Below the pieces are notes generated by a model. It made no database searches, was not told the DNA's origin, and worked only from the letters and a program-made list of their open reading frames with translations. A DNA stretch of 64,000 nucleotides. Source: Neolewinella xylanilytica. Its GTDB lineage: Bacteria > Bacteroidota > Bacteroidia > Chitinophagales > Saprospiraceae. Location of the stretch: positions 1,674,001 to 1,738,000 of the forward strand of contig NZ_PTJC01000005.1 in assembly GCF_002934605.1 (NCBI RefSeq). The letters run 5' to 3'. The position numbers were made by a program, and so were the translations under genes. Of the stretch, positions 3,046 to 22,600 are shown in pieces. Position 1 is the first letter of the stretch. Each line of letters begins with the position of its first letter.

Positions 3046-4213
3046 GGGTATAGCCGACGTGCCACTCTACGAAGTCCGCCACGCTAAACTGTCGGGCGTT
3101 GACCAGGGTGGCGAGGTACACCCGATCGGAGAGCCGGTACTTCAGGCCGAGGCGCTGCCGGAAGCGATCCACGGGGTTCATGTCACCCGGCGCGACAACG
3201 TAATACTCCGCCTGCACCATTACCGACCAGCGGTGAAATATCAGTTCGTAGGAGGGGAAGACGCCCAGCCGCAGTCGGTCGCCCACGGAGCCCGCCGCGT
3301 GATGGTGTAGTTGCCCGTCTTCGGTCCAGGCCGACACGCGGTTCCCGTCGTGGTACATCAGGGAGCCACCCAGGCCAATCTTGGAGCCGTAGGATAGCCG
3401 TCTACCCACCGTCACCGCGATTCCGCCCAGCCCGTGGGTCAGGCCGCGGTACTTCTCCGATGGTGGTAAGTTTTCGGTTTGGTAGAGTCGCTTCTCCACA
3501 CCGCCGAAGAAGGATATGCTGAGGTCCGTATACGGGGAGAACCGCGGTAGGGGCGGAAGCACCGCCGGTGGCACTTCCCGAATTGCGTAGCGCAGGCCGA
3601 TCCCGGCCGACACGGCGTTCAGCCCCGCGTTCGGCCGCTTGACGTTGCCGTTGGAGACGTGGGTGAGCCCGGCGTCCAGCTGCAGGGCGAAGTGATCGCT
3701 CAGCGGCACCTTACCCGCCACCCGCAGGCGAAAGTAGGCCGTGAGGTAAGTGCTGATGAGCTTATTGAAGGGGTTGCGGTCCGCATCGTAGCGTCGCCAG
3801 CCGGCGGCCAGGCCGATATCGGCACCGTAGGCCAACCGGATTCCGTCACGTTCCCAGAGCGGGGCCAAAAAGCTGCGGTGGAGGGCGACGGGCCGGCCCA
3901 GTTCCCGGCGATTGTGGTAGTGGAGAAACGTCAGTCCGAAGCCAAGTTCCGGCCGCCCGTGGCGCCGTTCCCATTCCCGGTGGCCGGCCGTCCGCACCAG
4001 GAAGCTCGCCGTAGTGGCACCGAAGCGGGTGAGGGGAGCACCACTCAGGTTTTCGCCCCGTAGGAAGGGCTCCACGGGCAGGAGCATCCCCACTTGGTGA
4101 CCGGCGGTCACGGTCCATGGCCGCCGGTTGTCGGCGGTATTCCGGTCGTGCTGCGCCGTGGCGATCGCGCTGATCAGGAACAGGAGATGTACGACGAGGA
4201 GGGCCTGGCGCAT
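3011..4213 (-). CDS. PagL-like acyloxyacyl hydrolase (lipid A deacylase family)
   Basis: A 400-residue protein with a signal peptide (hydrophobic residues 4-20, ending ATAQ) and alternating beta-barrel sequence. The motif HVSNGNVKRPNAGLN places His185 and Ser187 in the H-x-S arrangement of the PagL/acyloxyacyl hydrolase family, outer-membrane enzymes that remove an acyl chain from lipid A. Bacteroidota members typically show HxSNGN..KPN.GLN as here. Length is greater than enterobacterial PagL because of extra barrel or loop sequence. Convergent with the ubiD-like gene, overlapping 35 bases. A perfect GC hairpin abuts the start codon (4214-4231). Confidence 0.75.
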   Translation of the reverse strand: MRQALLVVHLLFLISAIATAQHDRNTADNRRPWTVTAGHQVGMLLPVEPFLRGENLSGAPLTRFGATTASFLVRTAGHREWERRHGRPELGFGLTFLHYHNRRELGRPVALHRSFLAPLWERDGIRLAYGADIGLAAGWRRYDADRNPFNKLISTYLTAYFRLRVAGKVPLSDHFALQLDAGLTHVSNGNVKRPNAGLNAVSAGIGLRYAIREVPPAVLPPLPRFSPYTDLSISFFGGVEKRLYQTENLPPSEKYRGLTHGLGGIAVTVGRRLSYGSKIGLGGSLMYHDGNRVSAWTEDGQLHHHAAGSVGDRLRLGVFPSYELIFHRWSVMVQAEYYVVAPGDMNPVDRFRQRLGLKYRLSDRVYLATLVNARQFSVADFVEWHVGYTLTGSRRRGGSD

Positions 4214-7439: not shown

Positions 7440-7471
7440 TTGCGTAGTTACGTAGAATATACGTAGATTTG
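7440..7471 (+). promoter_or_regulatory. Predicted nirB promoter (TTG-N21-TAGATTTG)
   Basis: The -7 box TAGATTTG (7464-7471) fits the Bacteroidota TAnnTTTG consensus and has a TTG at 7440-7442, 21 bases upstream. The box overlaps the TACGTA at 7460-7465, making the composite TACGTAGATTTG, which recurs exactly on the minus strand in front of the porin-nrt operon. The ATG of nirB is 42 bases downstream of the box. Confidence 0.6.
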
Positions 7472-7500
7472 CTTACGTAGCAATCTACGTATGCTACGTA
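7449..7500. promoter_or_regulatory. Cluster of five TACGTA palindromes upstream of nirB (candidate operator)
   Basis: TACGTA occurs at 7449-7454, 7460-7465, 7474-7479, 7486-7491 and 7495-7500. Three of them are embedded in a larger near-perfect inverted repeat: TACGTAGATTTGC (7460-7472), a central TTACGTA, and GCAATCTACGTA (7480-7491). Sites lie on the -7 box and in the 5' leader. The same hexamer clusters in the nrt/nas divergent promoter region, so it is probably bound by a nitrate-regulon regulator. That protein's identity is not shown. Confidence 0.65.
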
Positions 7501-7513
7501 AACGCCAGCCACT

Positions 7514-10021
7514 ATGCAAATCGTCGTCATCGGGAATGGAATGGTCGGACACAAGTTCTGCGACCTATTCGCCCGTCACCCCCGCCGCGGAGAATTTCAA
7601 CTGACCGTCTACGGCGAGGAATGCCGGCCGGCCTACGACCGCGTCCACCTCAGCGCCTACTTCAGCGATCGCGACGCCGGGAAGCTTTCCCTCGCTACCC
7701 GGGAGTGGTACGCGGAAGCGGGCATCACCCTGCGTACCGGCGAGTTGGTCACCGAACTCGACACCGACAAGCGCGAGTTACGTACCCACCTCGGTAACGT
7801 ACAGCGCTACGACTACCTGGTACTGGCCACCGGCTCCGTCCCCTTCGTACCCCCCGTTCCCGGTCGGGACAAGAAGGGGGTCTTCGTGTACCGTACGATC
7901 GAGGACCTCGAGGCGATTCTCGGTTACGCCGATCAACTGAAGCAACGCCCGGGCGCCCGTTCCGTGGTAATGGGCGGCGGCCTGCTCGGACTCGAAGCGG
8001 CCAAGGCGACCCTCGACATGGGCTTGCCCACCGACGTGGTGGAGTTCGCCCCCCGCCTGATGCCCCGCCAGCTGGATGAGGTCGGTGCCGCCACACTCAC
8101 CAGTACCCTGACCGAGTTGGGACTCGGCGTCCACCTGTCTAAAAGCACCACCGCCATCGCGGGCAACGGCTCGATCACCCACCTGGAGTTCAGCGATCGG
8201 TCGACCTTACCCACGGATATGCTGATCATCTCAGCGGGAATCCGGCCGCGGGACGAACTGGCACGCAAAGCCGGCATCGAAGTCGGCCCCCGCGGCGGCA
8301 TTCTCGCCGATGAATACCTGCGCACGAGTGCCCCCGACGTCTACGCGATCGGGGAGGCGGCCCTGTACCGCGACATGATTTACGGGCTCGTCGCCCCGGG
8401 TTACGACATGGCCCGGGTGGCGCTGGGGTCGATCATGGCCGACGCCGACGGGGGCTGCATGCCGGAATCGATCGACCTGTCCACTAAGCTGAAACTGATC
8501 GGTACCGACGTAGCGAGTTTTGGCGACTGTTTCCCCCCGGCCGAAGCATCCCGCTCCATCGTTTACCACGACGAATCCCGGGGTATCTACAAGCGGATCA
8601 ACATTAGCCGAGACGGCAAACGATTGCTGGGGGGCATGCTGGTGGGCGACGCCGGCGACTACAACATGCTCCACCAAATCTACAAGAACGGTATGCCCCT
8701 GCCCCCGCAGCCGGAAGACCTGATCCTGGGGGCCCGTGGGGTAGGGGGGCAGCCCGGCGCCGGCGTGCTGGACCTGCCGGACGCGGCCGTCATCTGCTCC
8801 TGCGAAAACGTCACGAAGGGGAAACTCTGCGGCCTGCTGGAAGACGGGTCGGCCGCCTCGGTAAAGGAACTGGTAGGCTGCACCGGGGCCGGAACGGGCT
8901 GCGGCGGCTGCAAGCCCATCCTGAGCGACGTGGTCGAAAATTACCTGAAGGCCCAGGGCAAGGTAGTCCGCAACGTCATCTGCGAGCACTTCCCCTTCAC
9001 CCGCCAGGAACTGCGGGACCTGGTGCAGCTAAAGGAGCTGCGTACCTACGACGAAGCCCTCGATACCCTCGGCAGCGGCCACGGCTGCGAGGTCTGCAAG
9101 CCGGCGCTCGCGAGCATCTTCGCTACCGTCTACGCCGAAACCGCTAACCCCCAGGCGCAGATTCAGGATACCAACGACCGCTTCCTGGCCAACATCCAGC
9201 GGAACGGTACCTACTCGGTGGTGCCGCGTATCCCCGGGGGGGAGATCACGCCGGACAAGCTGCTCGCCATCGGTCGCGTAGCCAAGAAGTACGACCTCTA
9301 CACCAAGATCACCGGCGGGCAGCGTATCGATCTGTTCGGCGCCCGGCTGGAGGAGCTGCCCCCGATCTGGGAGGAGCTGATCGCCGCTGGTTTCGAGAGC
9401 GGACACGCCTACGGTAAATCGCTCCGCACGGTGAAAAGCTGCGTCGGCAGTACCTGGTGCCGCTACGGGATGGACGAGTCCGTCTCCTTCGCCATCGAGA
9501 TCGAGGAGCGGTACAAGGGCCTCCGGTCCCCGCACAAGCTCAAGGGTGGGGTGAGCGGCTGTATCCGGGAATGTGCCGAGGCCCGGGGCAAGGATTTCGG
9601 CCTGATCGCCGTGGAAGAAGGCTATAACGTGTACGTCTGCGGCAACGGCGGTGCCCGCCCCAAACACGCCGAGCTACTCGCGGGGCCGGTAGATCGGGCC
9701 ACCGCCGTGAAGTACCTCGATCGCTTCCTCATGTTTTACCTGCGCACCGCCGCCCCCCTGGTCCGCACCGCCAAGTGGCTCGAGGGCCTGGACGGCGGCA
9801 TCGCCTACCTGAAAAGCGTGGTGGTGGACGATGCCCTCGGCCTGGCGGAGGAACTGGAAACGGAAATGCAGGGCCTGGTGAACGGCTACGCCTGCGAGTG
9901 GAAAGAGGCCATCAGCGATCCCGCCATGCGGCAGCGCTTCCGCCCCTTCGTGAACACAGAGGACAGCGAGGAGCTCGCCTTCGTTCCCCTCCGTGAGCAG
10001 AAAATGCCGAAACCGTGGTAG
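7514..10021 (+). CDS. nirB: NAD(P)H-dependent assimilatory nitrite reductase, large subunit NirB
   Basis: An 835-residue NirB, the normal family length. It reduces nitrite to ammonium with six electrons from NAD(P)H in the cytoplasm. Domain order: N-terminal FAD/NAD-binding reductase (IVVIGNGMVGHKF; second dinucleotide fold at VVMGGGLLGLEAA), BFD-type [2Fe-2S] domain (CSCENV...GCGGCKP), a second BFD-like segment (GCEVCKP), a ferredoxin-like half domain (GTYSVVPRIPGGEI), and the siroheme/[4Fe-4S] site with C643, C649, C683 and C687 in the expected C-x5-C...C-x3-C pattern. It starts an operon with nirD, a DUF4202 gene, narX and narL. The first ATG after the TACGTA cluster is taken as the start. 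Confidence 0.96.
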   Translation: MQIVVIGNGMVGHKFCDLFARHPRRGEFQLTVYGEECRPAYDRVHLSAYFSDRDAGKLSLATREWYAEAGITLRTGELVTELDTDKRELRTHLGNVQRYDYLVLATGSVPFVPPVPGRDKKGVFVYRTIEDLEAILGYADQLKQRPGARSVVMGGGLLGLEAAKATLDMGLPTDVVEFAPRLMPRQLDEVGAATLTSTLTELGLGVHLSKSTTAIAGNGSITHLEFSDRSTLPTDMLIISAGIRPRDELARKAGIEVGPRGGILADEYLRTSAPDVYAIGEAALYRDMIYGLVAPGYDMARVALGSIMADADGGCMPESIDLSTKLKLIGTDVASFGDCFPPAEASRSIVYHDESRGIYKRINISRDGKRLLGGMLVGDAGDYNMLHQIYKNGMPLPPQPEDLILGARGVGGQPGAGVLDLPDAAVICSCENVTKGKLCGLLEDGSAASVKELVGCTGAGTGCGGCKPILSDVVENYLKAQGKVVRNVICEHFPFTRQELRDLVQLKELRTYDEALDTLGSGHGCEVCKPALASIFATVYAETANPQAQIQDTNDRFLANIQRNGTYSVVPRIPGGEITPDKLLAIGRVAKKYDLYTKITGGQRIDLFGARLEELPPIWEELIAAGFESGHAYGKSLRTVKSCVGSTWCRYGMDESVSFAIEIEERYKGLRSPHKLKGGVSGCIRECAEARGKDFGLIAVEEGYNVYVCGNGGARPKHAELLAGPVDRATAVKYLDRFLMFYLRTAAPLVRTAKWLEGLDGGIAYLKSVVVDDALGLAEELETEMQGLVNGYACEWKEAISDPAMRQRFRPFVNTEDSEELAFVPLREQKMPKPW

Positions 10022-10068
10022 TGCCCGAAACCTCATTCCCTTCCGTAATCCCCTCCAAATCATCCGCC

Positions 10069-10434
10069 ATGACCGCTTACACCACCACCTCCCCGGAACG
10101 GGTCACCACCTGGTTCCGCGCCGGCCACACGAGCCAGTTTCCGGTAGGCGCCGGGGCCACGATCAAGTACGGCGACCGCCAGATTGCCGTTTTCTACTTT
10201 CACCGTACCGACCGTTGGTACGCCTGCCAGAACCTGTGTCCACACAAGCTGGAAAACGTACTCGGCCGGGGCCTGATCGGCGAGCAGGACGGCATTCCGA
10301 AAGTAGCCTGCCCGCTGCACAAACGCACTTTCAGCCTGGAGACGGGGGAGAACCTGAACGGGGAGTGCCCACCGGTAGCCGTGTACCCCGTGAAGATCGA
10401 AAACGACTACGTATACGTAGGATTCGCCGACTAG
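10069..10434 (+). CDS. nirD: Nitrite reductase small subunit NirD (Rieske-like)
   Basis: A 121-residue Rieske-fold protein that partners NirB. Both cluster motifs are visible: C57-P-H59 and C81-P-L-H84, so a [2Fe-2S] cluster is plausible (many enterobacterial NirD proteins have lost these ligands). I chose the ATG at 10069, which starts just before the conserved domain. A GTG at 10015 would add 18 residues and overlap nirB by 7 bases, which looks less likely. The gap to nirB is 47 bases, consistent with translation from the same message. It ends 16 bases before the DUF4202 gene. Confidence 0.9.
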   Translation: MTAYTTTSPERVTTWFRAGHTSQFPVGAGATIKYGDRQIAVFYFHRTDRWYACQNLCPHKLENVLGRGLIGEQDGIPKVACPLHKRTFSLETGENLNGECPPVAVYPVKIENDYVYVGFAD

Positions 10435-10450
10435 CGCTTACCTTTCGGCT

Positions 10451-11050
10451 ATGTCCGCTACCGATGACCCGAAACTGACCGCCGCATTCGCCGCCTTTGA
10501 TGCCGCCAACGCCGCCGACCCCCGCTACGTGGATTCCGGCGCCGACGAGGTGCCCTACGAGCTCCTGTACGCACAAAGAATGACGGAGGAATTGAACCGG
10601 TACCTTCCCGAGGCCCCCTTGCCCCTGCGCCTCGCCGCCCGCGCCCAGCACCTCGAACGCTGGCGTAGCCCGCGGGAAGATTACCCCATGGACCGGGAGG
10701 GCTACCTGCGGTGGCGGGCGGACCTGAAAAAGTTCCACGCGGCCCGCGCCGGGGAGATACTGAGTGAGGTGGGCTTCGGAGCGGAAGTCATCGAGCGCGT
10801 GGCCTTCCTGCTGCAGAAAAAACGCTTGAAGCGGGACGACGATACCCAGGCGCTGGAAGACGTGATCTGCATCGTTTTTCTCAAGTACTACGCCGCCGCC
10901 TTCGCCGCCGAGCATCCCCACGAAAAGGTCATCGACATCCTGCATAAAACCCTACGGAAAATGTCGGACCGCGGCCGCGATGCCGCCCTCGCCGCCGAGC
11001 TGCCGGAAGCCGTGCGCGGCATGGTGCTCGAGGCGATGAAAGGGGCGTAG
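10451..11050 (+). CDS. DUF4202 domain-containing protein
   Basis: A 199-residue protein that covers the DUF4202 family end to end (conserved YELLYAQRMTEEL, ARAQHLERWRSPREDYPMDREGYLRWR and FLQKKRLKRDDDTQALEDVICIVFL segments). It has no signal peptide and is mostly helical, with several conserved His/Asp residues (HLERW, DDDTQ, ED) that could bind metal, which recalls HD-like proteins. This is impression only. DUF4202 genes are often found beside nitrite-reductase genes. Here it sits between nirD and narX with gaps of 16 and 3 bases, so a role in nitrite reduction or its regulation is likely but undefined. Confidence 0.8.
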   Translation: MSATDDPKLTAAFAAFDAANAADPRYVDSGADEVPYELLYAQRMTEELNRYLPEAPLPLRLAARAQHLERWRSPREDYPMDREGYLRWRADLKKFHAARAGEILSEVGFGAEVIERVAFLLQKKRLKRDDDTQALEDVICIVFLKYYAAAFAAEHPHEKVIDILHKTLRKMSDRGRDAALAAELPEAVRGMVLEAMKGA

Positions 11051-11053
11051 GCC

Positions 11054-12778
11054 ATGGGAGAAAACCGCATCTTCTCCCGTCTCCGCCGCGCCTACCTGCT
11101 GGCCCTTTCGCTCATCGCCCTGGCGTTGATCGGGGAGCTCGTACTGGTGGACGGCTACCTCACGGACCAGGAGCGCGACGCGGAAATCATCAACGTGGCC
11201 GGACGCCAGCGTATGCTGAGTCAGCGCATCGCCAAAATGGTCGCCCTCAATCCGCCCGCCGACGCCGCGGACGTGGAAGAATGGCAGCTGCGCCACGGGT
11301 GGCTGAAGACCGAACTCAGGGGCCTGCCCGTTCGCCAGGAGCTAGCGGGACTGGACAGCCTGGTATTGCGGCTTTCCAGCCTCGCGCGGGAGGGAGGGGG
11401 CGCCGGAGCGCGGGTAGCGGAAGTGGACCGGTTATCCAATGCCTTTCTCCTGCGGATGGACGCCATCGTGGACGACCTCAGCGACATCGCCACCCGGAAG
11501 GTGGACCGGCTGCAGGGGGTGAATAAGTGGCTCACCTTACTGACGCTCTTCATCCTCTTCCTGGAACTGCTTTTCATTTTCCGGCCCCTGTCGCAGTTCG
11601 TGCGGCGGCAGTTCACCCAGATCCAGACCGAACGCCAGGCGCAGGAGGAAGCCCGGCACGAAGCCGAGGTGGCGGTGCGGGAGAAGGACGCTACGCTGCG
11701 CCAGCTCTACGCCCTTAACAGTGCCATCGACGAGGCGGCGCTCTTCGCCTCGTTGCGGGCCGACGGTACCGTGATCCACCTGAGCAAGAAGTTCCGGAGC
11801 CTGCTAGGAACGGATGAGCAGCTCGCTAACCGCTCCTTCGCCGAAATCCTGAACCGGGAGGAAGGGCGCCAGGCCCGCATGGAGGAGATCCTGCGCAACG
11901 TTGCCGTGACTCCCTGGCGGGGCGAATGGCAGCTGGTGGACGCCCGCGAGCAGCTGCGCTACCTGGAACTGAGCATCCTGCCCGCGCGCCGTGCCGGGGT
12001 GGATACCGATCGCTTCGTGCTGGCCACGGACATCACCGAAAGCCACCTCGCCCGCAAGGAACTGAACCGGATGACGGAGCGGCAAATCGCCGAGGAAAAG
12101 CAACGCGCCGATCAGCGTGCGCGGCAGACCAGCGAAGCCCAGGAAAAGGAACGGCTGCGCGTTGCCCGCGATCTCCACGACGGGGTGGGGCAGAACCTGA
12201 CCGCGCTGAAGTTCAGCCTGGAAAGCCTCAAACTGGAAAAAACGGAACGCAACCAGGCCGATCTCGATCGCCTCAAGCGGCTGGCGGGCGACATCATCCG
12301 CGGGGTCCGCATGGCCACCTTCAATCTGCGCCCGCCGGAGCTGAGCGACTACGGACTGGCCATCACCCTGGAACGGATGGCCCGCGAGCTGAGTCGGCTG
12401 ACGGGCGAACGGGTGGTCTGCCAGGTGGATACCTTTGACGTGGAGCTGGACCCGGCCGTCGAACTCAACCTCTACCGCATCACCCAGGAGGCAGTGAATA
12501 ACGCCATCAAGTACGCGGGGGCGAACTACATCCTCGTCACCCTCTCCGCCGGGGATAACCTCGTCAGCATCACGGTCGACGACGACGGGCGGGGCTTCGA
12601 CCCGGAGACGGTCAAGACCCGTACCGACGGTTCCGGCCTGGGATTGGCGAGCATGGAGGAACGCATCGCCCAATTGCACGGTCGCCTATTCATCCGTAGC
12701 TCGCCGGAAACCGGAACGCGGATCACCATCAACGTACCGCTGCCGAGCCGAACCACGCCTACTTTGCCTCCCGGCTGA
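11054..12778 (+). CDS. narX: NarX-like nitrate/nitrite sensor histidine kinase
   Basis: A 574-residue membrane kinase. TM1 lies at about residues 13-32, followed by the P-box-like segment NVAGRQRMLSQRIAKM (47-62), the nitrate/nitrite-sensing motif of NarX/NarQ and PilJ-type sensors. TM2 is near 155-180, then come a coiled linker, a PAS-like region (LFASLRADGTVIHLSKKFR) and a HisKA_3 domain with the phospho-acceptor in RDLHDGVGQ (H375). A C-terminal HATPase ends with GLGLASMEERI. It pairs with the downstream NarL-type regulator (47-base gap) and is only 3 bases after the DUF4202 gene. A GGCGCCGGAGCGCGGG repeat lies inside it at 11399-11414, in frame, encoding GAGAR in the sensor domain. Confidence 0.88.
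   Translation: MGENRIFSRLRRAYLLALSLIALALIGELVLVDGYLTDQERDAEIINVAGRQRMLSQRIAKMVALNPPADAADVEEWQLRHGWLKTELRGLPVRQELAGLDSLVLRLSSLAREGGGAGARVAEVDRLSNAFLLRMDAIVDDLSDIATRKVDRLQGVNKWLTLLTLFILFLELLFIFRPLSQFVRRQFTQIQTERQAQEEARHEAEVAVREKDATLRQLYALNSAIDEAALFASLRADGTVIHLSKKFRSLLGTDEQLANRSFAEILNREEGRQARMEEILRNVAVTPWRGEWQLVDAREQLRYLELSILPARRAGVDTDRFVLATDITESHLARKELNRMTERQIAEEKQRADQRARQTSEAQEKERLRVARDLHDGVGQNLTALKFSLESLKLEKTERNQADLDRLKRLAGDIIRGVRMATFNLRPPELSDYGLAITLERMARELSRLTGERVVCQVDTFDVELDPAVELNLYRITQEAVNNAIKYAGANYILVTLSAGDNLVSITVDDDGRGFDPETVKTRTDGSGLGLASMEERIAQLHGRLFIRSSPETGTRITINVPLPSRTTPTLPPG
11399..11414 (+). repeat. Dispersed 16-base element GGCGCCGGAGCGCGGG (exact), inside narX
   Basis: One of four exact copies in the window (others at 22379, 55351 and, inverted, 31620). 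Here it is read in frame within the sensor domain of the NarX-like kinase. Confidence 0.6.
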
Positions 12779-12825
12779 AGCTAGCGTTTCCCCTTATTTT
12801 GCCCCCTCAACCTTAGCTACCGATC

Positions 12826-13479
12826 ATGCCCACCCAAATCTTACTCGCCGACGATCACGCACTGGTGCGCGACGGTATTCGCCGCCTGCTGGAAGACGAA
12901 CCCGATCTCCAGGTGGTCGCCGAGGCCGATGACGGGGTCGGCATGCTGGAAATGGTGGAACGCGTCAAACCGGACCTGGCCATCGTCGACATCCGCATGC
13001 CCCGCCTGAACGGCATCGAAGCGGTCCGGCAGCTACGGGATAAAGGGGACAAAACCCCCTGCCTGATGCTCTCCATGCACGACAGCGAGGAATACGTGCT
13101 ACAATCCATCGACGCCGGGGCCTTCGGTTACCTGCTGAAGGACGCCAGCCGGGAGGAATTCCTGCGGGCGGTGCATACTATCGTCGGGGGCGATCGCTAC
13201 TTCAGCGGTGATCTATCCAATATCCTGATTCGCCAACTAATGAAGTCCGACCGGGGGGTGAGCAGTGCGTCACCTGCCCGGGAGGAAGTCGTCCTGACGC
13301 GGCGGGAGCGGCAGATCCTGCCCCTCATCCTCGAGGGGGCCACGAACCAGGAGATTGCCGATCGCCTCGACGTCAGCCGTCGAACCGTAGAGACTCATCG
13401 CTTCAACATGATGAAAAAACTCGGCGTCAGCAACAGCAGCGAACTGAATCGTCGGGTACGGGAGCTGGGCCTTCTCTAA
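12826..13479 (+). CDS. narL: NarL/LuxR family response regulator
   Basis: A 217-residue two-domain regulator. The N-terminal receiver has the acidic pair DD near residues 9-10, phospho-acceptor D55 (VDIRMPRLNG) and the conserved K in YLLKDAS. The C-terminal LuxR-type helix-turn-helix is clear (LTRRERQILPLILEGATNQE, DRLDVSRRTVETHR). It follows the NarX-like kinase by 47 bases, so the two are very probably a pair that responds to nitrate/nitrite. It is the only obvious DNA-binding protein in the island and hence the first candidate to bind the TACGTA clusters. TACGTA does not match the enterobacterial NarL heptamer exactly. Its stop is 2 bases from the end of the convergent nrtD. Confidence 0.88.
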   Translation: MPTQILLADDHALVRDGIRRLLEDEPDLQVVAEADDGVGMLEMVERVKPDLAIVDIRMPRLNGIEAVRQLRDKGDKTPCLMLSMHDSEEYVLQSIDAGAFGYLLKDASREEFLRAVHTIVGGDRYFSGDLSNILIRQLMKSDRGVSSASPAREEVVLTRRERQILPLILEGATNQEIADRLDVSRRTVETHRFNMMKKLGVSNSSELNRRVRELGLL

Positions 13480-13481
13480 TT

Positions 13482-14285
13482 TCAGTGCTCGAGGAAGCCG
13501 ATGAGGTGCTCCCGGTAGCCGTAATAATCGGGGTGGTTCAGGATCTCCTTCCGCATGCGCGGCCGCTGAAAGCCGATTTCCAGGATGTCGCCGATCTGGG
13601 CCCGGGGGCCGGAGGTCATCATAATCACCCGGTCGGCCAGGAAGATCGCCTCGTCAACGTCGTGGGTAATCTGGATGGCGGTGATCTTTTCCTTGTCCCA
13701 TACCTCTAACAATACGTCCTGAAGTTCGGCCCGCGTCAGGGAATCCAGCATGCCGAAGGGTTCGTCGAGGAGGAGGATCTTCGGTTTCAGGGCGAAAGCG
13801 CGCGCGATGCCCACCCGCTGCTGCATGCCCTGGCTGAGTTGATTGGCACGGCGGTACATCGACTGGCCGAGCCCCACCTTGTCCAGGTAGTATTTGACGA
13901 TATCTTCCCGTTGCTTGCGGGTGCCGTGGGGGAAGACCTGCTCCACGCCCAGCATGACGTTGTCGAAGGCGGTCATCCAGGGAAAAAGGCTCGGCGATTG
14001 AAAGATGACGCCCCGATCGGGCCCCGGACCGGTGATGGGAAATTCATTCAGCAGGATCTCCCCCCGCGAAATGGCATTCAACCCGGCGATCATGGTCAGC
14101 AGGGTGGTTTTCCCGCAGCCGGAGTGCCCGATGATGGATACGAACTCCTCCTTTTTGATCTGGAGCTGCAGGTTTTCGAGTACGACGTAGTCGCCGGTCG
14201 GGGTAGGGTAGATTTTAGTCAGATCGCGGAAGTCGAGCACGACGTCGCGGAGGTTGACGGGGGCGGTGGGGGCGGTAGCTTGCAT
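13482..14285 (-). CDS. nrtD: Nitrate ABC transporter ATP-binding protein (NrtD-like)
   Basis: A 267-residue ABC ATPase of the nitrate/sulfonate/taurine (NrtD/SsuB) group. Walker A is GHSGCGKT, the signature LSQGMQQR, Walker B ILLLDEP and the switch histidine ITHDVDEA. The length is that of a single ATPase domain. It is the last gene of the minus-strand operon porin-nrtA-nrtB-nrtC-nrtD, 10 bases after the second ATPase, so the importer probably uses a heterodimer of the two. Which one corresponds to cyanobacterial NrtC or NrtD cannot be fixed from sequence alone. Confidence 0.88.
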   Translation of the reverse strand: MQATAPTAPVNLRDVVLDFRDLTKIYPTPTGDYVVLENLQLQIKKEEFVSIIGHSGCGKTTLLTMIAGLNAISRGEILLNEFPITGPGPDRGVIFQSPSLFPWMTAFDNVMLGVEQVFPHGTRKQREDIVKYYLDKVGLGQSMYRRANQLSQGMQQRVGIARAFALKPKILLLDEPFGMLDSLTRAELQDVLLEVWDKEKITAIQITHDVDEAIFLADRVIMMTSGPRAQIGDILEIGFQRPRMRKEILNHPDYYGYREHLIGFLEH

Positions 14286-14295
14286 GGATTCCGTT

Positions 14296-15168
14296 TTAGG
14301 CGCGACGCCACTTGCTTACGAAGCTGCGGCTGCCGGGTTTGATGGGCTGGATGTCGGGAAGGGTGAGGGAGGCATCACGGTCCGGCCGTCCCGCTTCACC
14401 GAGTTGGACGAGGTAGTTGAGGATGTCGGTGCGGACGCGTTTGAAGTGGGGGTCGTGGTTCATGTCCGTCTTGTCGCGCGGCCGTTCGAGCTCGATGCGG
14501 AATTCCGGGCCCAATCCCGCCGCGGGGCCGGGGTCGAGGGGGATGATGCGATCGGCCATGTAGATGCCTTCGTCCACGTCGTTGGTGATCAGCACGGCAC
14601 TGCGGCGGTTGGTGCCCCAGATCTGGAGGATTTCATCCTGGAGGTTGCCGCGGGTGAGGGCATCCAGGGCTCCGAGCGGTTCGTCCATGAGCAAGAGATC
14701 GGGGTCGGTGGCCAGTACCCGGGCGATGGAGACCCGTTGCCGCATGCCGCCGCTCAGTTCCGCCGGGTGCTTGTCGACCGCGTGACTGAGGCCCACCATT
14801 TGCACGAACTTCCGGATGTGCAGATTGCGCTGCTCCTTCGTCCAGTAGGGATACACTTCGTCGACCGCGAGTCCGACATTCTGGTACACCGTATACCACG
14901 GGAGCAGGGAGTAATTCTGAAAGATGATCCCGCGCTCCGGCGCCGGTCCGGTGATGGGCTGGCCGCGGTACAGCACCTCCCCTTCGCTGGGTTGCAGCAG
15001 TCCGGTCATCAGGTTCACCAAGGTCGTTTTGCCCGAGCCGGTGAAACCTACGATGGCCAAGAATTCACCTTCCTCGATCGTCAGGTTGATGTTAGAGAGC
15101 ACTTCGGTGCGGGTGTTGCCGTGGCCGTACCATTTGCTTACGTTTTTGAATTCTATTATTGGAAGCAT
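14296..15168 (-). CDS. nrtC: Nitrate ABC transporter ATP-binding protein (NrtC-like, without regulatory domain)
   Basis: A 290-residue ABC ATPase with Walker A GFTGSGKT, signature LSGGMRQR, Walker B LLLMDEP and D-loop GALDALTR. The H-loop position reads ITNDVDEG, so the usual switch histidine appears to be asparagine, which suggests one weakened ATP site in a heterodimer with the neighbouring ATPase (ITHDVDEA). The C-terminal substrate-binding-like regulatory domain of cyanobacterial NrtC is absent. Upstream of it (15169-15545) is an unusual 377-base spacer with heptamer repeats separating it from nrtB. Confidence 0.88.
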   Translation of the reverse strand: MLPIIEFKNVSKWYGHGNTRTEVLSNINLTIEEGEFLAIVGFTGSGKTTLVNLMTGLLQPSEGEVLYRGQPITGPAPERGIIFQNYSLLPWYTVYQNVGLAVDEVYPYWTKEQRNLHIRKFVQMVGLSHAVDKHPAELSGGMRQRVSIARVLATDPDLLLMDEPLGALDALTRGNLQDEILQIWGTNRRSAVLITNDVDEGIYMADRIIPLDPGPAAGLGPEFRIELERPRDKTDMNHDPHFKRVRTDILNYLVQLGEAGRPDRDASLTLPDIQPIKPGSRSFVSKWRRA

Positions 15169-15235
15169 TTTTAGTCTTTTAGCTCTTTAGTCTTTTAGGG
15201 GCCGGCTTCGCCGTCGGTTACTCTTTAGGGGGGAG

Positions 15236-15291
15236 TTGTCTGTTGTCAGTTGTCAGTTGTCAGTTGTCAGTTGTTAGTTGTCGATTGTCAG
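15236..15291 (+). repeat. Heptanucleotide tandem array (TTGTCAG, 8 units)
   Basis: Eight consecutive 7-base units: TTGTCTG, then TTGTCAG four times, TTGTTAG, TTGTCGA and TTGTCAG. The same unit family recurs at 15350 and 30370. Comparable short tandemly repeated heptamers (STRR) are known in cyanobacteria. Confidence 0.85.
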
Positions 15292-15349
15292 ATTTCGGTT
15301 GGGCTTGCCAATTGTTGGTCAGCTTCGCTGGTTAGCCTTTGGGGGGGAG

Positions 15350-15377
15350 TTGTCAGTTGTCAGTTGTCGGTTGTCGG
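15350..15377 (+). repeat. Heptanucleotide tandem array (TTGTCRG, 4 units)
   Basis: Units TTGTCAG, TTGTCAG, TTGTCGG, TTGTCGG, in the same spacer as the 8-unit array and following the same G-run context. Confidence 0.8.
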
Positions 15378-15545
15378 CCGAGCTTGGTAATTGTTGGTCA
15401 GCTTGGCTGGTTTTGTCATCGGTTAGTCGCCTTCGGTAGGTAGTGCGGTAGTAGCTGGCTTAGTGGTTGTTGTTCTCCAGGTTCGGGAAGCTCTCATTGG
15501 ACTACCCGAAAACCGATAACCAACAACCAAAAATCCAACAACCCC

Positions 15546-16649
15546 TCAACCCACCGCCTTCTCGAAACTAACCCGCTGCTGCACCCAGAACATGATCCGG
15601 TCGAGCAGGAAGCCGACCAGTCCGATGACGAACATGGCGACGATGATCTTGGCGTTGCTGTCCGAGCCGCCGTTCTGGAATTCCTCCCATACGAAAGAAC
15701 CGAGGCCCGGGCTCTGCGCCAGTAGCTCGATGGCGATGAGGACCATCCAGGCCACGGATACCGTAATGCGCATACCGGTGAAGATGACCGGAATGGCGGA
15801 GGGCAGGATCACCTTGAAGATCTTCTTCCCGATACCCAGGTTCAGGACGCGGGCCACGTTCAGGTAGTCCTTGTTGACTGAAGAGACGCCAAGGCTCGTA
15901 TTGACCAGGGTAGCCCACATCGAGCAGAGCCCTACGCTGATGCAGGAGATGAGAAAGGAGGTGTCGGAATCGCTACCCAGGGTCAGGGTCTTGACGATCA
16001 TGAATACGAGCAGTAACCACACGACCGGGGAGACGGGTTTGAAGACCTGGATCATCCAGTTGAAGGCGATCCGCAGGGTATCGTTCAGGCCGATGACGAT
16101 GCCGATCGGAACGGCGATGAGCAGGGAGATCAGAAAGCCCACCGCCACGGTCTTCAGGCTGGTACCGATCTGATCCACGAAGGAAGGGCGGCCGGTGTAG
16201 ACGATCGGATCCAGGCCCTGTTCTTCCCGTACCGCGTTGAGTTCGGCGGTTTCGGCGCCGAATTCCGCTTTTTTGGAGCTAATCGCGCGGTGGTCGGCCA
16301 GGAGTAATCCCGCGGCGTGGACCACCTCGCTGGGGAATGGCAGGGTGTTCGGTTTGCAGCTTACCGCACCGCTGGCGATACAGGCTTCCATTTCTGCGCC
16401 GGCTTCCGGTCCCTGTTCCTGCACCGTCCGTTCGATGCGGGCAGCGGCCTCCACCCCGTAGAGGTAGCTTGCGCTGAGTTGCCACAGGAGGAGGAAAACA
16501 GCCATGGATGCCAGGGAAATGCCGAGGGTGCGCACTACGCCCGGGAACCGACTCCGGACCTTACTGCGGGCCGGGAGGTAGCGACCTAGTCCGGCCAGGG
16601 ATGCTTTCGGGGCGGAGGCTACGGGAGCGTCGAAGGGGGGTTGTCCCAT
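15546..16649 (-). CDS. nrtB: Nitrate ABC transporter permease (NrtB-like) with large loop insertion
   Basis: A 367-residue permease of the NrtB/SsuC group (usual length about 260-320). TM1 is at about 40-62 (LGISLASMAVFLLLWQL). It is followed by about 100 mostly polar residues (GVEAAARIERTVQEQGPEAG through GRPSFVDQI), then the binding-protein-dependent transport domain with several TM segments (VAVGFLISLLIAVPIGIVIG; SVAWMVLIAIELLAQSPGLG, the EAA-like loop). The polar insertion between TM1 and the core probably lies outside the membrane and contains two cysteines (ACIASGAVSCK). It follows nrtA by 56 bases and provides the channel for nitrate uptake. Confidence 0.88.
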   Translation of the reverse strand: MGQPPFDAPVASAPKASLAGLGRYLPARSKVRSRFPGVVRTLGISLASMAVFLLLWQLSASYLYGVEAAARIERTVQEQGPEAGAEMEACIASGAVSCKPNTLPFPSEVVHAAGLLLADHRAISSKKAEFGAETAELNAVREEQGLDPIVYTGRPSFVDQIGTSLKTVAVGFLISLLIAVPIGIVIGLNDTLRIAFNWMIQVFKPVSPVVWLLLVFMIVKTLTLGSDSDTSFLISCISVGLCSMWATLVNTSLGVSSVNKDYLNVARVLNLGIGKKIFKVILPSAIPVIFTGMRITVSVAWMVLIAIELLAQSPGLGSFVWEEFQNGGSDSNAKIIVAMFVIGLVGFLLDRIMFWVQQRVSFEKAVG

Positions 16650-16705
16650 GGTAAGTTGTCTTTGGTAGTTTCGGATGCCGCAGATCGCGGTAAGGGGGTG
16701 AAGAA

Positions 16706-18073
16706 TTACTGGTCTTTATTGCCGATGGCGAAGCTGGAGAGGTAGCCGATCGGGTCCTTGCCGTCGTAGGTGTTGCCGTCGATGAAGGCATCGGTGGCGG
16801 GCTTGTAGCCGTCGGTATCCGGGATCTCCGTGGCGGGGATGTGGCCTTCGGTCACGAGTTCTTCCGCCGCTTGCCGCCAGATATCGGGACGGTAGATTTC
16901 CTTAATGGTGCCGTGGTACCAATCGGCCGGCTTGGCTTCCGGGATCTGCCCCCAGCGCCGCATTTGGGTGAGAAACCAGATGCCGTCGGAGTAAAAGGGA
17001 TAGGTGGCATCGTGGCGGTAAAAGACGTTGAAGTCGGGCATGGAGCGCTTGTCGCCCTTCTCGTACTCGAAGGTGCCGGTCATGGAGTTAGCGAGCACGA
17101 TGGAGTCGGCACCGACGTAATCGGAGCGGGAAAGAATGCTTACCGCCTGGGTGCGGTTAGCGGGGTCGTCGAGCCAGCGGCCGGCGCGGATCAGGGCCTT
17201 GGTGATGGCCTTCGTGGTATTAGGGTACTTGGTGGCGAAATCGGCCCGCATCGCGAATACTTTTTCGGGGTTGTTCTGCCAGATGTCGTAGTTCGTGACT
17301 ACGGGCACGCCGATCCCCTTGAATACGGCTTGCTGGTTCCAGGGCTCGCCCACGCAGTAGCCGTAGATCGTTCCGGCTTCCAGGGTGGCGGGCATCTGGG
17401 GCGGGGGGGTGACGGAGAGCAGCACGTCGGCGTCTACCTGCCCCTGGATGTTGTCGGCGGTGTAGAAGCCCGGGTGGAGGCCGGCCGCCGCCAGCCAGTA
17501 GCGGAGCTCGTAATTGTGGGTGGAGACCGGGAAGACCATCCCCATCTTGAAGGGGTTCCCGGCGTTGCGGTATTCCTCGACCACCGGCACGAGGGCGTCC
17601 GCCGCGATCGGGTGGACGGGCTTGCCGCTGTCGTCCATATCGAGGTGGGGCTTCATTTTGTCCCAGACATCGTTCGAGACCGTGATGCCGTTGCCGTTCA
17701 GGTCCATGGAGAAGGGGGTGATGAGCTGCGCCTGCCGCCCGAAGCCCGCTCCCGCCGCGATGGGTTGGCCGGCGAGCATATGCGCCCCGTCGAGCTGGCC
17801 GTCGATCACCCGGTCGAGGATATTCTTCCAGTTGGACTGGGCTTCTACGGTCACGAACAGGCCCTCGTCGCGGAAGTAGCCCATTTCCTTGGCAATCGCC
17901 AGGGGTGCCATGTCCGTCAGTTTGATAAAGCCGAAGGTTAACTGGGGTTTTTCAATGGCCGCCAGTTTGCTGGCCCGGGGATTCGCTTCCGCGGAGCCGG
18001 TCTGGGCGTTGCTTTCGCCGCAGGAGTGGAGGAGGTAGGAGCAAGCCAGTAGGAGTAGGAATACATGCTTCAT
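16706..18073 (-). CDS. nrtA: Nitrate-binding lipoprotein (NrtA-like ABC transporter substrate-binding protein)
   Basis: A 455-residue protein with a lipoprotein signal ([19 protein letters not shown]18 is the likely lipidated cysteine). The mature part carries NrtA-type signatures: [40 protein letters not shown] and [16 protein letters not shown]. In NrtA these segments surround the nitrate site. Length agrees with cyanobacterial NrtA (about 445). It is the second gene of the minus-strand operon, 58 bases after the porin and 56 bases before the permease. Specificity for nitrate over nitrite, cyanate or sulfonate is inferred from context and the GFIKLTD motif. Confidence 0.9.
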
Positions 18074-18131
18074 GACGGGAGATTTTTAAGGGAGGCTGGT
18101 TGGGAATCCGGGCGGGCGGTGGCCCGGGGAT

Positions 18132-19412
18132 TTATTTCTTCTTGTTTTCCGTTTTCAGCAGGCTGGGCTGAAAAGTGATCATGGTCCAGGCCCAGTTATT
18201 GGACTGGCGGTTGCCGGGGCGCAGGGTGGTCAGCGTTTCCGTGCCGAGGAGGTGGGAGTAGCCGACGTGCAGGGTGACGGCGTCGGCGAGCTTGCGCACG
18301 TACACCAGGTCGAGCTCCGTGCCCAGGGAAGCGCTCAGCTTGTCACCGCTGTCGTCCAGTTGTTCGGAGGCCGTTAGAAAGTGGTGACCGTGGGCGAGCA
18401 GGGCGGCCTTGCCCACTTTCCACTTCGTTTTCAGGTAGAGGTCCGTTACGCCGACCGTACCGTTGGCCGGTCCGACGAAGAAGTAGTCCATAAAGCCGTT
18501 AAAGGCGTGATTCGTACCGTAGGAGGGGTCGAACCAGGTCACGTCGGCGGATTCGTCGGTATCGTCCTTGCCCGAGATGTACTCGAAGCCCAGCGTCAGG
18601 GGAGTAGCCTTGGTGGGATAGGTGGCGTTGATGCCGCCGAGGAGCGCACCCACCGTGTTCCCGCCGAGGCGGCCGGTCTGGGCGTAGAGGTCGCCGGAGA
18701 GGGTCACCTTACCCACTTGGTACGTGAAGTAGGTGCCCAGCGTCTGCCGGTTCGAGACGGTAGAGTCGGCATTCTGTAGCGTCTCGTTCATCGCCAGTAG
18801 CGAGAGCGTGCCCTTTTCCTCGGCGAAGGTGCGGTTGAACCAGGCGTACTGCAGGCTTTTGTAATTGCCGCTGACGGAGTAGAAGTTGGCGCCGGGGCGC
18901 TGGAGCAAAGCCGGCTCGGGAATATCGTCATCGGAATTAAAGGCGAAACCCAGGTGCAGGCGGTTCACTTTCTTTTCCCCTTCGAACTGGAAGAGGAGGG
19001 CATCGTGCCGCCGTCCCTGCTGCGCCCATTCCAGTGCGCCGAGGATGCGCTCGTTGTCGTAGCTGATGATCTGGCGGCCCGCTTTCACGGAGAAGCCGGG
19101 CGTGAAGCGGTACTGGCCCCAGGCTTCGCTGAGGAAGGTGTTGCCGCCTTCGTTCTTGAAGATCTGCGGCACCTCGCCCCAGAGGCGAACGTCCTGCAGC
19201 GCCAGGCGGAAGGTGTACTTTTCTTCGGCGTAGTCCAGGTAGAGGCGGCTGCGCTGCTCCACGAAGAAAGCGGGGTCGAAACCGGAGGAGCTCGGCGTCT
19301 TGAAACCGTTGCGGAATTCGGCGCGCGGCCGTACTTCGGCGCTGAGCTCGAACTGGGCGGAGAGCCCGGCGCCCAGCGAGAGGAAGAGAAGAAGGAAGGC
19401 GATCTTTTTCAT
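18132..19412 (-). CDS. Alginate-export-type outer-membrane porin, probable nitrate porin
   Basis: Start placed at the ATG at 19412 (MKKIAFLLLFLSLGAGLSAQ, a good signal peptide); an upstream ATG at 19472 would put 20 odd residues before it and lie inside the promoter region. The 426-residue protein has the features of the alginate_exp/porin family: ELSAEVRPRAEFRNG at the start, AWGQYRFTPGFSVKAGRQII and strands with aromatic girdles throughout. Members are 18-stranded outer-membrane channels. As first gene of the nrt operon it probably lets nitrate or nitrite through the outer membrane. This role is inferred from position. Confidence 0.75.
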   Translation of the reverse strand: MKKIAFLLLFLSLGAGLSAQFELSAEVRPRAEFRNGFKTPSSSGFDPAFFVEQRSRLYLDYAEEKYTFRLALQDVRLWGEVPQIFKNEGGNTFLSEAWGQYRFTPGFSVKAGRQIISYDNERILGALEWAQQGRRHDALLFQFEGEKKVNRLHLGFAFNSDDDIPEPALLQRPGANFYSVSGNYKSLQYAWFNRTFAEEKGTLSLLAMNETLQNADSTVSNRQTLGTYFTYQVGKVTLSGDLYAQTGRLGGNTVGALLGGINATYPTKATPLTLGFEYISGKDDTDESADVTWFDPSYGTNHAFNGFMDYFFVGPANGTVGVTDLYLKTKWKVGKAALLAHGHHFLTASEQLDDSGDKLSASLGTELDLVYVRKLADAVTLHVGYSHLLGTETLTTLRPGNRQSNNWAWTMITFQPSLLKTENKKK

Positions 19413-19469
19413 AGCTTGTAATGACTTAGCGAGTGGGTATGCCGTCGGACGTCCGAATGCCCGATGAAA

Positions 19470-19477
19470 CAAATCTA
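19470..19477 (-). promoter_or_regulatory. Predicted -7 box of the porin-nrt operon (TAGATTTG)
   Basis: On the minus strand TAGATTTG fits TAnnTTTG and joins the TACGTA at 19476-19481 to give TACGTAGATTTG, identical to the nirB promoter element. No TTG lies at the usual -33 distance; a TACGTA (19495-19500) lies 17 bases upstream instead, which would suit activator dependence. Confidence 0.55.
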
Positions 19478-19586
19478 CGTAGTGGAAATCAAACTACGTA
19501 ATTAAATACGTACTTATCTAAGTAATTTTTTCATTGCCCCGCCGAATTACGTATGTTTGTAGCGTCCTAAATGGCCCAATTACGTA
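19476..19586. promoter_or_regulatory. Five TACGTA palindromes in the nrt/nas divergent promoter region (candidate operator)
   Basis: TACGTA at 19476-19481, 19495-19500, 19507-19512, 19548-19553 and 19581-19586, all within the 191-base intergenic region between the porin and the nitrate reductase. The first overlaps the minus-strand -7 box and the fourth overlaps the plus-strand -7 box. The region is AT-rich against its neighbours. Confidence 0.65.
19552..19559 (+). promoter_or_regulatory. Predicted -7 box of the nitrate reductase operon (TATGTTTG)
   Basis: TATGTTTG fits TAnnTTTG and overlaps TACGTA 19548-19553, giving TACGTATGTTTG. The ATG is 44 bases further on. No well-placed TTG is present upstream; a T-run at 19526-19531 is near the -33 position. 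Confidence 0.55.
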
Positions 19587-19603: not shown

Positions 19604-22600
19604 ATGGCACTGAACCAAGTGAAAACAACCTGTTCGTACTGTGGCGTAGGCTGTGGTATCATCGCTACGCGGGACGGACAGGACCGCCTCACCGTCGAGG
19701 GGGACCCCGATCATCCCGCCAATCGGGGCCAGCTCTGCTCGAAGGGCCGTAACCTGAACTACGTAGTTCAGGATCGGTCCGACCGCCTGCTGTATCCCCA
19801 AGCGCGGCTCCACCGTCATCACCCCCTGCAGCGGGTCAGTTGGGACCAGGCCCTGGATCGCGCCGCCGCCGTGTTCCGTAGCATCATGGAGGAGCACGGT
19901 CCCGACAGCGTAGCCTTTTATATATCCGGACAGTGCCTCACCGAGGAGTACTACCTGGTGAATAAGCTCACCAAGGGCTACCTGGGCACCAACAACATTG
20001 ATACCAACTCCCGCCTCTGCATGAGCTCCACCGTGGTGGCCTACACGAAGGCGCTGGGAGAGGACGTCGTGCCGGGCACCTACGAGGACATCGACCATAC
20101 CGACTGCCTCTTCGTAGCCGGCGCCAACCCCGCCTGGTGCCACCCCATCATCTGGCGCCGGGTCGAGGCCCGCAAAGCCGCCCACCCCTCCATGAAGATC
20201 ATCGTGGTCGACCCGCGACGCACCGATACCTGCGCCCTGGCCGACCTCCACCTGCAGATCAACCCGGGTACCGACGTGCTGCTCTACCACGCCATCGCGC
20301 GCCGCCTCTACGATACCGACCGACTGGACCTCGGCTTCATCCGCGATCACACGGAAGCGGACGAGAACTATCTCCGCATCCTGAAATCCTTGCACCTGCG
20401 CTCCGCCGCAAAAACCTGCGGCGTCAGCCTGGACGACATCAAGACCGCCGCCAACTACATCGGTGACGCCCGCGCCTTTATGTCCATGTGGGCGATGGGC
20501 CTCAACCAGAGCCGCGTGGGCGTGGAAAAGAACGGTGCCCTCATCAACCTGCACCTCCTCACCGGCCAGATCGGCAAGCCAGGGTCCGGCCCCTTCAGCC
20601 TCACCGGTCAGCCCAACGCGATGGGCGGGCGGGAAGTGGGGGGCATGGCGAGTCTGCTGGCGGCCCACCGCGTGCTCGCCAATAAGTCGGATCGGGAAGA
20701 GGTAGCCCGCTTTTGGGGGGTGGACCGCATCCCCGCCGAACCCGGGCTTACCGCTACCCAGATGTTCGATGCCCTCGAGAGTGGAAAGCTAAAGGCCATC
20801 TGGATCATCTGCACCAACCCCTCCGTAAGTCTCCCGAATGCCAACCACGCCGATTCCGCCCTGCGCAAGGCCAAGTTCGTGGTGGTGCAGGACATCAGCC
20901 ACCGCAGCGATACGGCCGACTACGCCGACCTGCTGCTGCCCGCCGCCGGCTGGCTAGAAAAGACGGGCACGATGACGAACTCCGACCGCCGGGTCAGCTA
21001 CCTTCAGCCTTTGGTGCCGCCCCCCGGCGAAGCCCGCCCCGACGCCGATATCATCTGCGATTTTGCCCGCCGCATGGGCTACTCCGGCTTCGACTACCGC
21101 GACGTCAGCGAGGTGTACGACGAGTACGTGCGCATGACCGCCGGTACCCACATCGACGTCAGCGGCCTGAGCCACGACCGCCTCCGCCGGGAGGGTACCT
21201 TTCAGTGGCCGGTGCCTTCACCCGTGCACCCCGGCACGCCGCGGCTGTTTACCGATCACCGCTTTTATACGCCGTCCGGCCGCGCCCGCTTCCTGTCTAC
21301 CATCTCCCACAACGAGAAGCCCCCGGTAGCCCCGCCCGACCGCCCGTACATTCTCACCACCGGGCGCATCCGGGACCAGTGGCACACCATGACCCGTACC
21401 GGCAAGGTGGCCCGGCTGCGCCGCCACATGGACGTGCCCTGCCTGGACATCCACCCGCTGGACGCCGCGGCGGAAAAACTGGAGGACAACCAACTTGCGG
21501 TGGTGCACGCCGGCAACGGGGAGGTACGGGTACGCATCCGCTACCAGACCACGCTGAAACGCGGGGTGGTCTTCCTGCCGATGCACTGGGGCAAGACCCT
21601 CGGCTCCTCCCTGACCCGCGCGAACAACCTGACCGACGATACCCTCGACCCGTACAGCAAGCAGCCCAACTTCAAATTCGGCTTCGTCGGGGTGAAGGCC
21701 TACGTCAAGGCACGGGAGGACATCCTCGTCATCGGGGCCGGCGCGGCGGCCTACCGCTTTATCGCCAGCTACCGCGAGCACAATACGCGCGACCGCATCA
21801 CGGTCTTCTCCCGCGAGAAAAACGCCTTCTACAACCGGGTCCTCCTGCCCGAATACGTCACCGAGCACCTGAGTTGGGAGCAACTCGAGAAGATCCGCGA
21901 ACGGGAGCGGCAACGGCTGGACTTCGATCTCCAGCTGGAAACCTCCATCGAGCGGATCGACCGCGAGCACCGGGTGGTGTACACCGCCGCCGGCGACGCC
22001 TTTACCTACGACCGGTTGATCATCGCTACCGGTAGCCGCCCCTTCGTGCCCCGCGACGTTCCCCTGCAACTGCCGGGGGTATTTACCATGCGCCGGCGTG
22101 AGGACGCGGACCGGCTCAGCCATTACCTGCGCATACCCGAGCGGCCGCGCGACGCACACGTGCTCATTGTCGGCGGCGGGTTGCTGGGGCTGGAACTGGC
22201 GGCCAGCATGCAGGACATCGGCGTACGCATTACCCTCGTCCAGCGCAGCAACCGCCTCATGGAGCGGCAACTGGACGCCACGGCCAGCCAGCTGCTGGCG
22301 GAGGACGTCGGCGAGCGGGGCATCCAAACGTACTTCCGCAACGAGGTGGACACCATCTTCCCGGTGGGGGCGGGGGAGGGCGCCGGAGCGCGGGAAGCGA
22401 TGCGGGTAACTTTCAAGAGTGGTATTTCCCTGGTATGCAACGCGGTCGTCTACGCCATCGGCACGCGGCCTAACCTGGAGGTAGCGCGGACCGCCGGACT
22501 GAAGTGTACGGGAGGCATCGTGGTAGATGACCGCCTGACGACCAGCGATGCGCACGTGCACGCGATCGGGGAGGTGGCCGAATGGCGGGGTAAACGCTTC

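Follow-up and report, generated by a model that had tools for sequence, protein, structure and literature searches.

How are nitrate uptake, nitrate reduction and nitrite reduction placed under common control? The question arises from a 64-kb stretch of the Neolewinella xylanilytica genome (the window), in which genes for nitrite reduction (nirBD), nitrate transport (nrt) with an adjoining porin gene, and a fused nitrate reductase (nas) form a cluster together with those for a sensor kinase and a NarL-type response regulator (Table 1). An initial annotation had pointed to copies of the hexamer TACGTA at three predicted promoters of this cluster, and had attributed them to one regulator controlling uptake and both reductases. 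Our results indicate that the element is a degenerate TAC[G/T]TA, not strictly TACGTA, arranged in a helically phased array, and that it recurs as far as Flavobacteriaceae. Judged from sequence, these hexamers are very probably the operator of a two-component nitrate system whose genes belong to the same cluster.

TACGTA clusters and their register on the -7 box

The two five-fold TACGTA clusters, one before nirB and one between the divergent porin-nrt and nas genes, were both found exactly where they had been reported. The nirB cluster covers 52 bp; with the -7 box placed at -12 to -5, it runs from about -27 to +25. It lies downstream of a degenerate TGCGTA at 7441-7446. Its 11/14/12 spacing recurs in genome G194 and, on the opposite strand, in G068. 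The divergent region also holds TACTTA at 19511-19516 and TAAGTA at 19519-19524. In Bacteroidota, the sigma-A -7 box TAnnTTTG lies at -12 to -5 (PMC9723704, in the part available). Such a box is present at all three proposed promoters (nirB, porin-nrt and nas), as in the phylum's sigma-A promoters, and at each of them one hexamer overlaps it in the same register as the initial annotation had described, with TACGTAGATTTG occurring twice and TACGTATGTTTG once. The regulator hexamer shares the first TA of the -7 box.

The window contains 23 TACGTA copies against a shuffle mean of 6.46, a number reached by none of 100 shuffles. In the whole genome (5.38 Mb) there are 1151 copies, or about 13.7 per 64 kb, and the surplus of the window over this mean is about equal to the ten copies in the clusters. 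Given this density, a Poisson estimate of the five-fold clusters expected per genome is 7e-7 for 52 bp and 1.5e-5 for 111 bp. Indeed, all four TACGTA triples in the genome (gaps of 1-25 bp) and 7 of its 16 close pairs (gaps of 2-32) fall in the two nitrate regions. The shared register had been judged hard to explain by chance, and the composite counts bear this out: TACGTANNTTTG occurs nine times genome-wide, three of these being the proposed nitrate promoters, while 0.02 would be expected per 12 kb at that density.

The element in relatives and its association with the kinase

Relatives of the kinase were sought in public genomes, and 28 of the 80 loci returned were kept (L033-L060, with L059 partial); L061-L112 were left unused, the matches being mostly confined to the kinase core. 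The kept loci come from Lewinella/Neolewinella, other Saprospiraceae and Flavobacteriaceae (Galbibacter, Salegentibacter, Aureibaculum, Leeuwenhoekiella and others). TACGTA stands before nirB in nearly all of them with a readable nirB start, and in many also before the regulator, porin or nas. One exception is Sinomicrobium (L042), which has just TACTTA/TAAGTA variants before nirB, indicating that the element is TAC[G/T]TA. Of the three proposed composites, two are conserved in the four near relatives (L033-L036): at nirB the composite and its register are retained in all four, and at the porin the register is likewise conserved, exactly in three and as TACTTAGATTTG (with TACTTA) in L033. The nas composite is the weaker point, being poorly conserved and retained in L033 alone.

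We then compared genomes with and without the kinase, using the 250 bp upstream of nirB as the test region. In an order-level sample of 396 genomes, nirB gave a match at E 1e-100 or better in 59 (one partial), and these divide into 13 with the kinase (>300 bits) and 46 without (best 134 bits). TACGTA was found upstream of nirB in 13/13 of the former and 0/46 of the latter. A class-level sample, examined afterwards, added 16 new nirB genomes and gave the same division, with TACGTA in 5/5 kinase-bearing genomes (297-361 bits) and 0/11 genomes without a match at 1e-50. Joined, the samples give 18/18 against 0/57, for which the nominal Fisher value of 1e-17 ignores shared ancestry and is not for face-value use. 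Within the genus, a TACGTA triple is present in 8/9 nirB-bearing and 0/8 nirB-lacking genomes, the ninth nirB genome (G228) having two hexamers.

At the level of loci, TACGTA ranks first of the 2080 canonical hexamers upstream of nirB in 39 kinase-bearing loci, with 109 copies against 5.0 expected from first-order simulations and at least one copy in 38 of the 39. It is absent from the same region in all 56 loci without the kinase. Rows without a usable nirB start (L041, L059) and duplicates (L145, L193, L196, L199, L200) were dropped, and L192, with a partial nirB, is counted in the 0/46 and left out of the 0/56. Regulator matches of at least 207 bits were obtained in all 18 kinase-bearing sampled genomes; among the kinase-lacking ones, regulator orthologues were sought in 9 of the 46 from the order sample and in each of the 11 from the class sample.

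Eight loci of kinase-lacking genomes (L155, L177, L179, L190, L191, L207, L208, L215) carry another kinase and a NarL-type regulator near nirB. No TACGTA was found in the 250 bp before nirB in any of the eight, and their regulators are perhaps other nitrate/nitrite regulators.

In three genomes the regulator gene lies away from nirB, at about 446 kb in G182, at 24 kb in G226, and on another contig together with DUF4202 and the kinase in G390. The regulator start codon of G226 is preceded, at a distance of 34 bp, by a composite, TACGTACTTTTG. In G182, TACTTA lies 42 bp before the regulator, whose start codon is itself overlapped by a TACGTA; a triple of TACGTA, first found blind, separates the regulator from the porin-nrt-nas genes. 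In G390, the sole element preceding the DUF4202-kinase-regulator operon is a TACTTA at a distance of 38 bp. Relocation thus lends good support in G226, fair support in G182 and weak support in G390.

Taken together, the conserved orthologous promoters, the rarity of the clusters genome-wide and the complete co-occurrence with the kinase/regulator pair in the sampled genomes strongly support the earlier proposal of one regulator for uptake and both reductases.

Array architecture, the candidate regulator and the sign of control

Architecture was analyzed in 60 dereplicated promoters, out of 86 with two or more hexamers. Among periods of 7-16 bp, the strongest in hexamer spacing was 10.5 bp, and 0 of 2000 random placements were as strong, so the sites face one side of the helix. 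The variants are polar, with TAAGTA followed by TACTTA nine times and the reverse once at 9-14 bp, which yields a dyad of the form TAMGTA-N4-6-TACKTA. TTTG follows TACKTA at +2 in 73 cases against 0-21 at the other offsets from 0 to 24 (not dereplicated), and in 31 against at most 5 after dereplication in the gene-ward direction; among the variants it does so in the TACTTA direction only (13 against 0 for TAAGTA). In the 30 promoters anchored on a composite, 77 hexamers lie upstream and 23 downstream, the 39 core ones being mostly the anchors themselves. The 19 anchored nirB promoters have 18 hexamers in one bin, whose centre is about 10 bp upstream from the anchor, and porin promoters carry arrays near -35, -45 and -60.

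The Pfam matches of the kinase at E<=0.001 were PilJ (2.9e-9), PAS_9, HisKA_3, HATPase_c and HATPase_c_2 only; HAMP and GAF gave no match at this threshold, and PAS precedes HisKA_3. The P-box, INVAGRQR, fits N-x-A-G-x-x-R, and in 17 aligned sequences its N, G, both R and M are invariant and its A is kept in at least 90%. A profile of the sensor domain matched PilJ best (7.7e-11); it also matched the nitrate-binding domain of McpN (6gcv, 5.7e-9; PMC6381276, seen in excerpt) and, more weakly, NarX (0.027) and NarQ (0.069). Since PilJ outscores McpN, nitrate is proposed as the ligand mostly from context. By its domains, the kinase fits the HAMP-less, PAS-bearing class of Bacteroidetes nitrate sensors (PMC8199190), sharing with it, in the available part of that review, the lack of HAMP/GAF, the PAS domain, the conserved P-box and the nitrate gene neighbours. 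Joostella marina is examined there, and Joostella atrarenae is in the present locus set (L047). The kinase class is thus already known. In contrast, the same part of the review describes no operator or regulon, of which one is proposed here, and we found none for this class in the open-licence PMC literature.

The regulator has the receiver-plus-output layout of the NarL/FixJ family (Response_reg, 6.8e-30; GerE, 6.1e-20), and its closest solved sequence is NarL (1a04, E 7.3e-38). The earlier suggestion that the NarL-type protein at 12826 is the nearest candidate binder can be strengthened: this protein is the best candidate, not just the nearest. Its orthologues share the recognition helix pattern [RKV]RTxExHR[FYH] in the printed part of the alignment.

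The system resembles NarX/NarQ-NarL/NarP of Escherichia coli in its P-box sensor kinase, HisKA_3 core, NarL-type regulator and nitrate/nitrite targets. It differs in that the kinase has PAS and no HAMP or GAF match, the recognition helix is TVETHRFN rather than the TVKVHVKH of NarL, and the targets look assimilatory. The operator also differs from the NarL 7-2-7 site, an example of which is given in the available part of PMC4549865: NarL/NarP sites are inverted heptamers with TAC at the outer ends, whereas here GTA...TAC faces inside a hexamer array. On the level of single sites, the initial annotation had held the hexamer to be unlike both the FNR/CRP site and the exact NarL heptamer. The FNR/CRP operator is a TTGAT-N4-ATCAA-like dyad, and by eye, no scan being made, the hexamer is indeed unlike it. 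The NarL heptamer consensus is TACYNMT, which is fitted by TACTTAT variants of the hexamer. NtcA-type sites read GTA-N8-TAC. This reading was rejected, because one nirB pair fits N8 and the others do not, the spacing peaking at N4-N6.

We propose that the kinase would read periplasmic nitrate via its NarX/PilJ-type P-box and phosphorylate the NarL-type regulator. Regulator dimers would then bind TA[A/C]GTA-N4-6-TAC[G/T]TA dyads and spread cooperatively along one helix face with the 10.5-bp period, so that nirBD, porin-nrt and nas would be switched together, as in other lineages the regulator's own gene probably is too. Activation is somewhat favoured over repression because upstream sites outnumber downstream ones and most composites have no -33 TTG. 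Under activation, the dyad over the -7 box would replace the -33 contact. More speculatively, these may represent a Bacteroidota promoter class whose spacer is occupied by a NarL-family regulator dimer with one half-site fused to the -7 box (TACKTAnnTTTG); the dimer would replace the -33 contact and nucleate a one-face array upstream and past the start. Equally tentative is the idea that this class represents a MerR-like position used by a response regulator and common to Saprospiraceae and Flavobacteriaceae. Site geometry alone cannot decide the sign, since NarL itself acts both ways, as an activator upstream of narG and as a repressor at the start site of frdA (PMC4549865, in the part available).

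Several observations weigh against this proposal. Half of the dereplicated promoters (30 of 60) have no composite. Several hexamers have the geometry of repressor sites, being placed over the -7 box or downstream of it. A -33-spaced TTG accompanies 8 of 31 composites against a background of 0.08 (nominal p 0.0025), though this is still a minority; before nirB in the window, a TTG stands at 7440-7442. The co-occurrence partly tracks lineage, 43 of the 57 kinase-lacking genomes being of one family (f20); the kinase-bearing ones span several families, and the kinase-lacking ones include two of the window's own family (G336, G382). The regulator separates the two groups less sharply (at least 207 against up to 185 bits) than the kinase does (at least 297 against up to 134). 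Finally, the only TACGTA near the relocated operon of G390 is codons 2-3 of DUF4202 (L219, minus strand, near 3180-3226); single TACGTA copies may thus be coding.

The strongest alternative keeps the same regulator and sites and makes the regulator a repressor, covering the nirB -7 box and start and being released or displaced once nitrate is sensed. We regard it as a serious contender, although on balance not the likelier one. Four of the five nirB hexamers in the window overlap or lie downstream of the -7 box, the -33 TTG exceeds chance in composites, and the 23 downstream hexamers would suit such a role, as does the repression of frdA by NarL from a 7-2-7 site at -4/+6 (PMC4549865, in the part available). 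In contrast, 77 hexamers lie upstream in the same 30 promoters, the porin arrays are upstream, and release on phosphorylation would be unusual for the NarL-type family as generally known.

A second alternative, which we consider improbable, is that the hexamers are bound by some other factor with its gene elsewhere (CRP/FNR, Rrf2 or a different response regulator), which co-occurs with this cluster by happenstance. Binding of the regulator to the hexamers is a prediction, and several of these genomes hold further NarL-type regulators at 1e-25 or better (for example, eight matches in G182 and four in G164). However, the motif tracks the kinase exactly in 75 genomes, a composite precedes the relocated regulator in G226, the regulator orthologues share their recognition helix pattern, and no second DNA-binding protein was found among the 20 window open reading frames (ORFs) scanned with Pfam. 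That a common TACGTA incidentally overlaps ordinary TAnnTTTG boxes, by chance or as a general promoter feature, deserves hardly any credence: TACGTA averages about twice the window shuffle expectation across the genome, two or three of the six further TACGTANNTTTG are intergenic, and nine genomes outside the genus also contain triples, several apparently as repeats, but the expected clusters are below 1e-4, conservation reaches far outside the genus, none of the 57 kinase-lacking genomes has the motif and the sites are helically phased.

With the proposal of a nitrate-responsive regulator at these hexamers, the Bacteroidetes nitrate sensor kinase class, whose roles in different organisms are asked for in the outlook of the review cited above (PMC8199190, in the part available), gains an operator and a core regulon that can be tested. 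The proposal would allow sequence-based prediction of nitrate assimilation control in Bacteroidota, and it provides a clear example in which the unusual -7 box of the phylum has bases in common with a regulator site.

The gene cluster and occurrences of the element elsewhere

As a stand-alone tag across the order, the exact TACGTA triple was rejected as unspecific: 17 of 396 genomes match, nine of them outside the genus, and a reversed control pattern likewise hits many genomes. Among the seven of these that were examined, only G182 represents the nitrate cluster. The triples of G257, G145 and G374, and probably of G382 and G163, are repeats by eye; that of G252 is followed by a short frame and an ORF of 137 aa, and the 20 kb covered there gave no match to a cluster gene; G379 and G009 are the remaining two. 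The TACGTA triple at 9535-9564 of L220, from a genome without the nitrate kinase, precedes a short frame and a 137-aa ORF, which is PIN-type toxin-like by eye, and is probably an unrelated autoregulation site.

In the own genome, no wider regulon emerged: no additional TACGTA, TACTTA or TAAGTA is found within about 70-80 bp of the six other TACGTANNTTTG or of the four TACTTANNTTTG. Three of the six TACGTANNTTTG are inside ORFs and one overlaps the start of an ORF, which leaves two in intergenic DNA. Six or seven of the nine other TACGTA pairs are inside ORFs of at least 145 aa; by eye, one precedes a MutL-like ORF and one is flanked by two oxidoreductase-like ORFs. No further nitrogen gene was recognised at the six TACGTANNTTTG or the nine pairs.

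The cluster reads, by Pfam, moeA, MobA-like, nirB, nirD, DUF4202, sensor kinase, NarL-type regulator, nrt-type genes, porin, nitrate reductase and NIR_SIR/rubredoxin, the nrt-type genes and porin being on the minus strand and the last two genes on the plus strand.

Table 1 Features of the nitrate cluster and its proposed regulatory sites in the window
Feature	Position	Strand	Basis and remarks
Five TACGTA before nirB (7449, 7460, 7474, 7486, 7495)	7449-7500		Sequence
nirB composite TACGTAGATTTG	7460-7471	+	-7 box TAGATTTG at 7464-7471
nirB, NADH nitrite reductase large subunit	7514-10021	+	Pfam
nirD-like Rieske protein	10015-10434	+	Pfam
DUF4202 protein	10451-11050	+	Pfam
Sensor kinase: PilJ/NarX-type periplasmic domain, P-box INVAGRQRMLSQ, PAS, HisKA_3, HATPase	11054-12778	+	Pfam
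NarL-type response regulator, proposed TAC[G/T]TA-binding protein	12826-13479	+	Pfam
nrt-type nitrate ATP-binding cassette transporter genes (13482-14285, 14296-15168, 15546-16649, 16706-18073)	13482-18073	-	Pfam; substrate assigned from context
Outer-membrane porin-like gene	18132-19412	-	Weak Pfam Alginate_exp, below cut-off; adjoins nrt in several relatives
porin-nrt composite TACGTAGATTTG with -7 box	19470-19481	-	Sequence
Five TACGTA in porin-nrt/nas divergent region (19476, 19495, 19507, 19548, 19581)	19476-19586		Sequence; 111 bp
nas composite TACGTATGTTTG	19548-19559	+	Sequence
Fused nitrate reductase	19604-23140	+	Pfam
NIR_SIR half-domain/rubredoxin protein	23137-24582	+	Pfam

The porin start at 19412 is a chosen one, an alternative ORF from TTG 19472 being likewise open. 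DUF4202 sits between nirD and the kinase gene in many relatives, and no paper treating DUF4202 and nitrate together was found in the open-licence PMC literature. A double hexamer, TACGTATACGTA, lies at 10408-10419, in the last part of nirD and a short way upstream of the DUF4202-kinase-regulator genes; the pair is also present in L033 and absent in L034-L036, and it is possibly an internal promoter site, or a coding coincidence. The fused nitrate reductase is a chain of 1178 aa that joins nitrate reductase, pyridine-nucleotide oxidoreductase, rubredoxin-reductase C-terminal and BFD domains, and it has near full-length matches in several Flavobacteriaceae.

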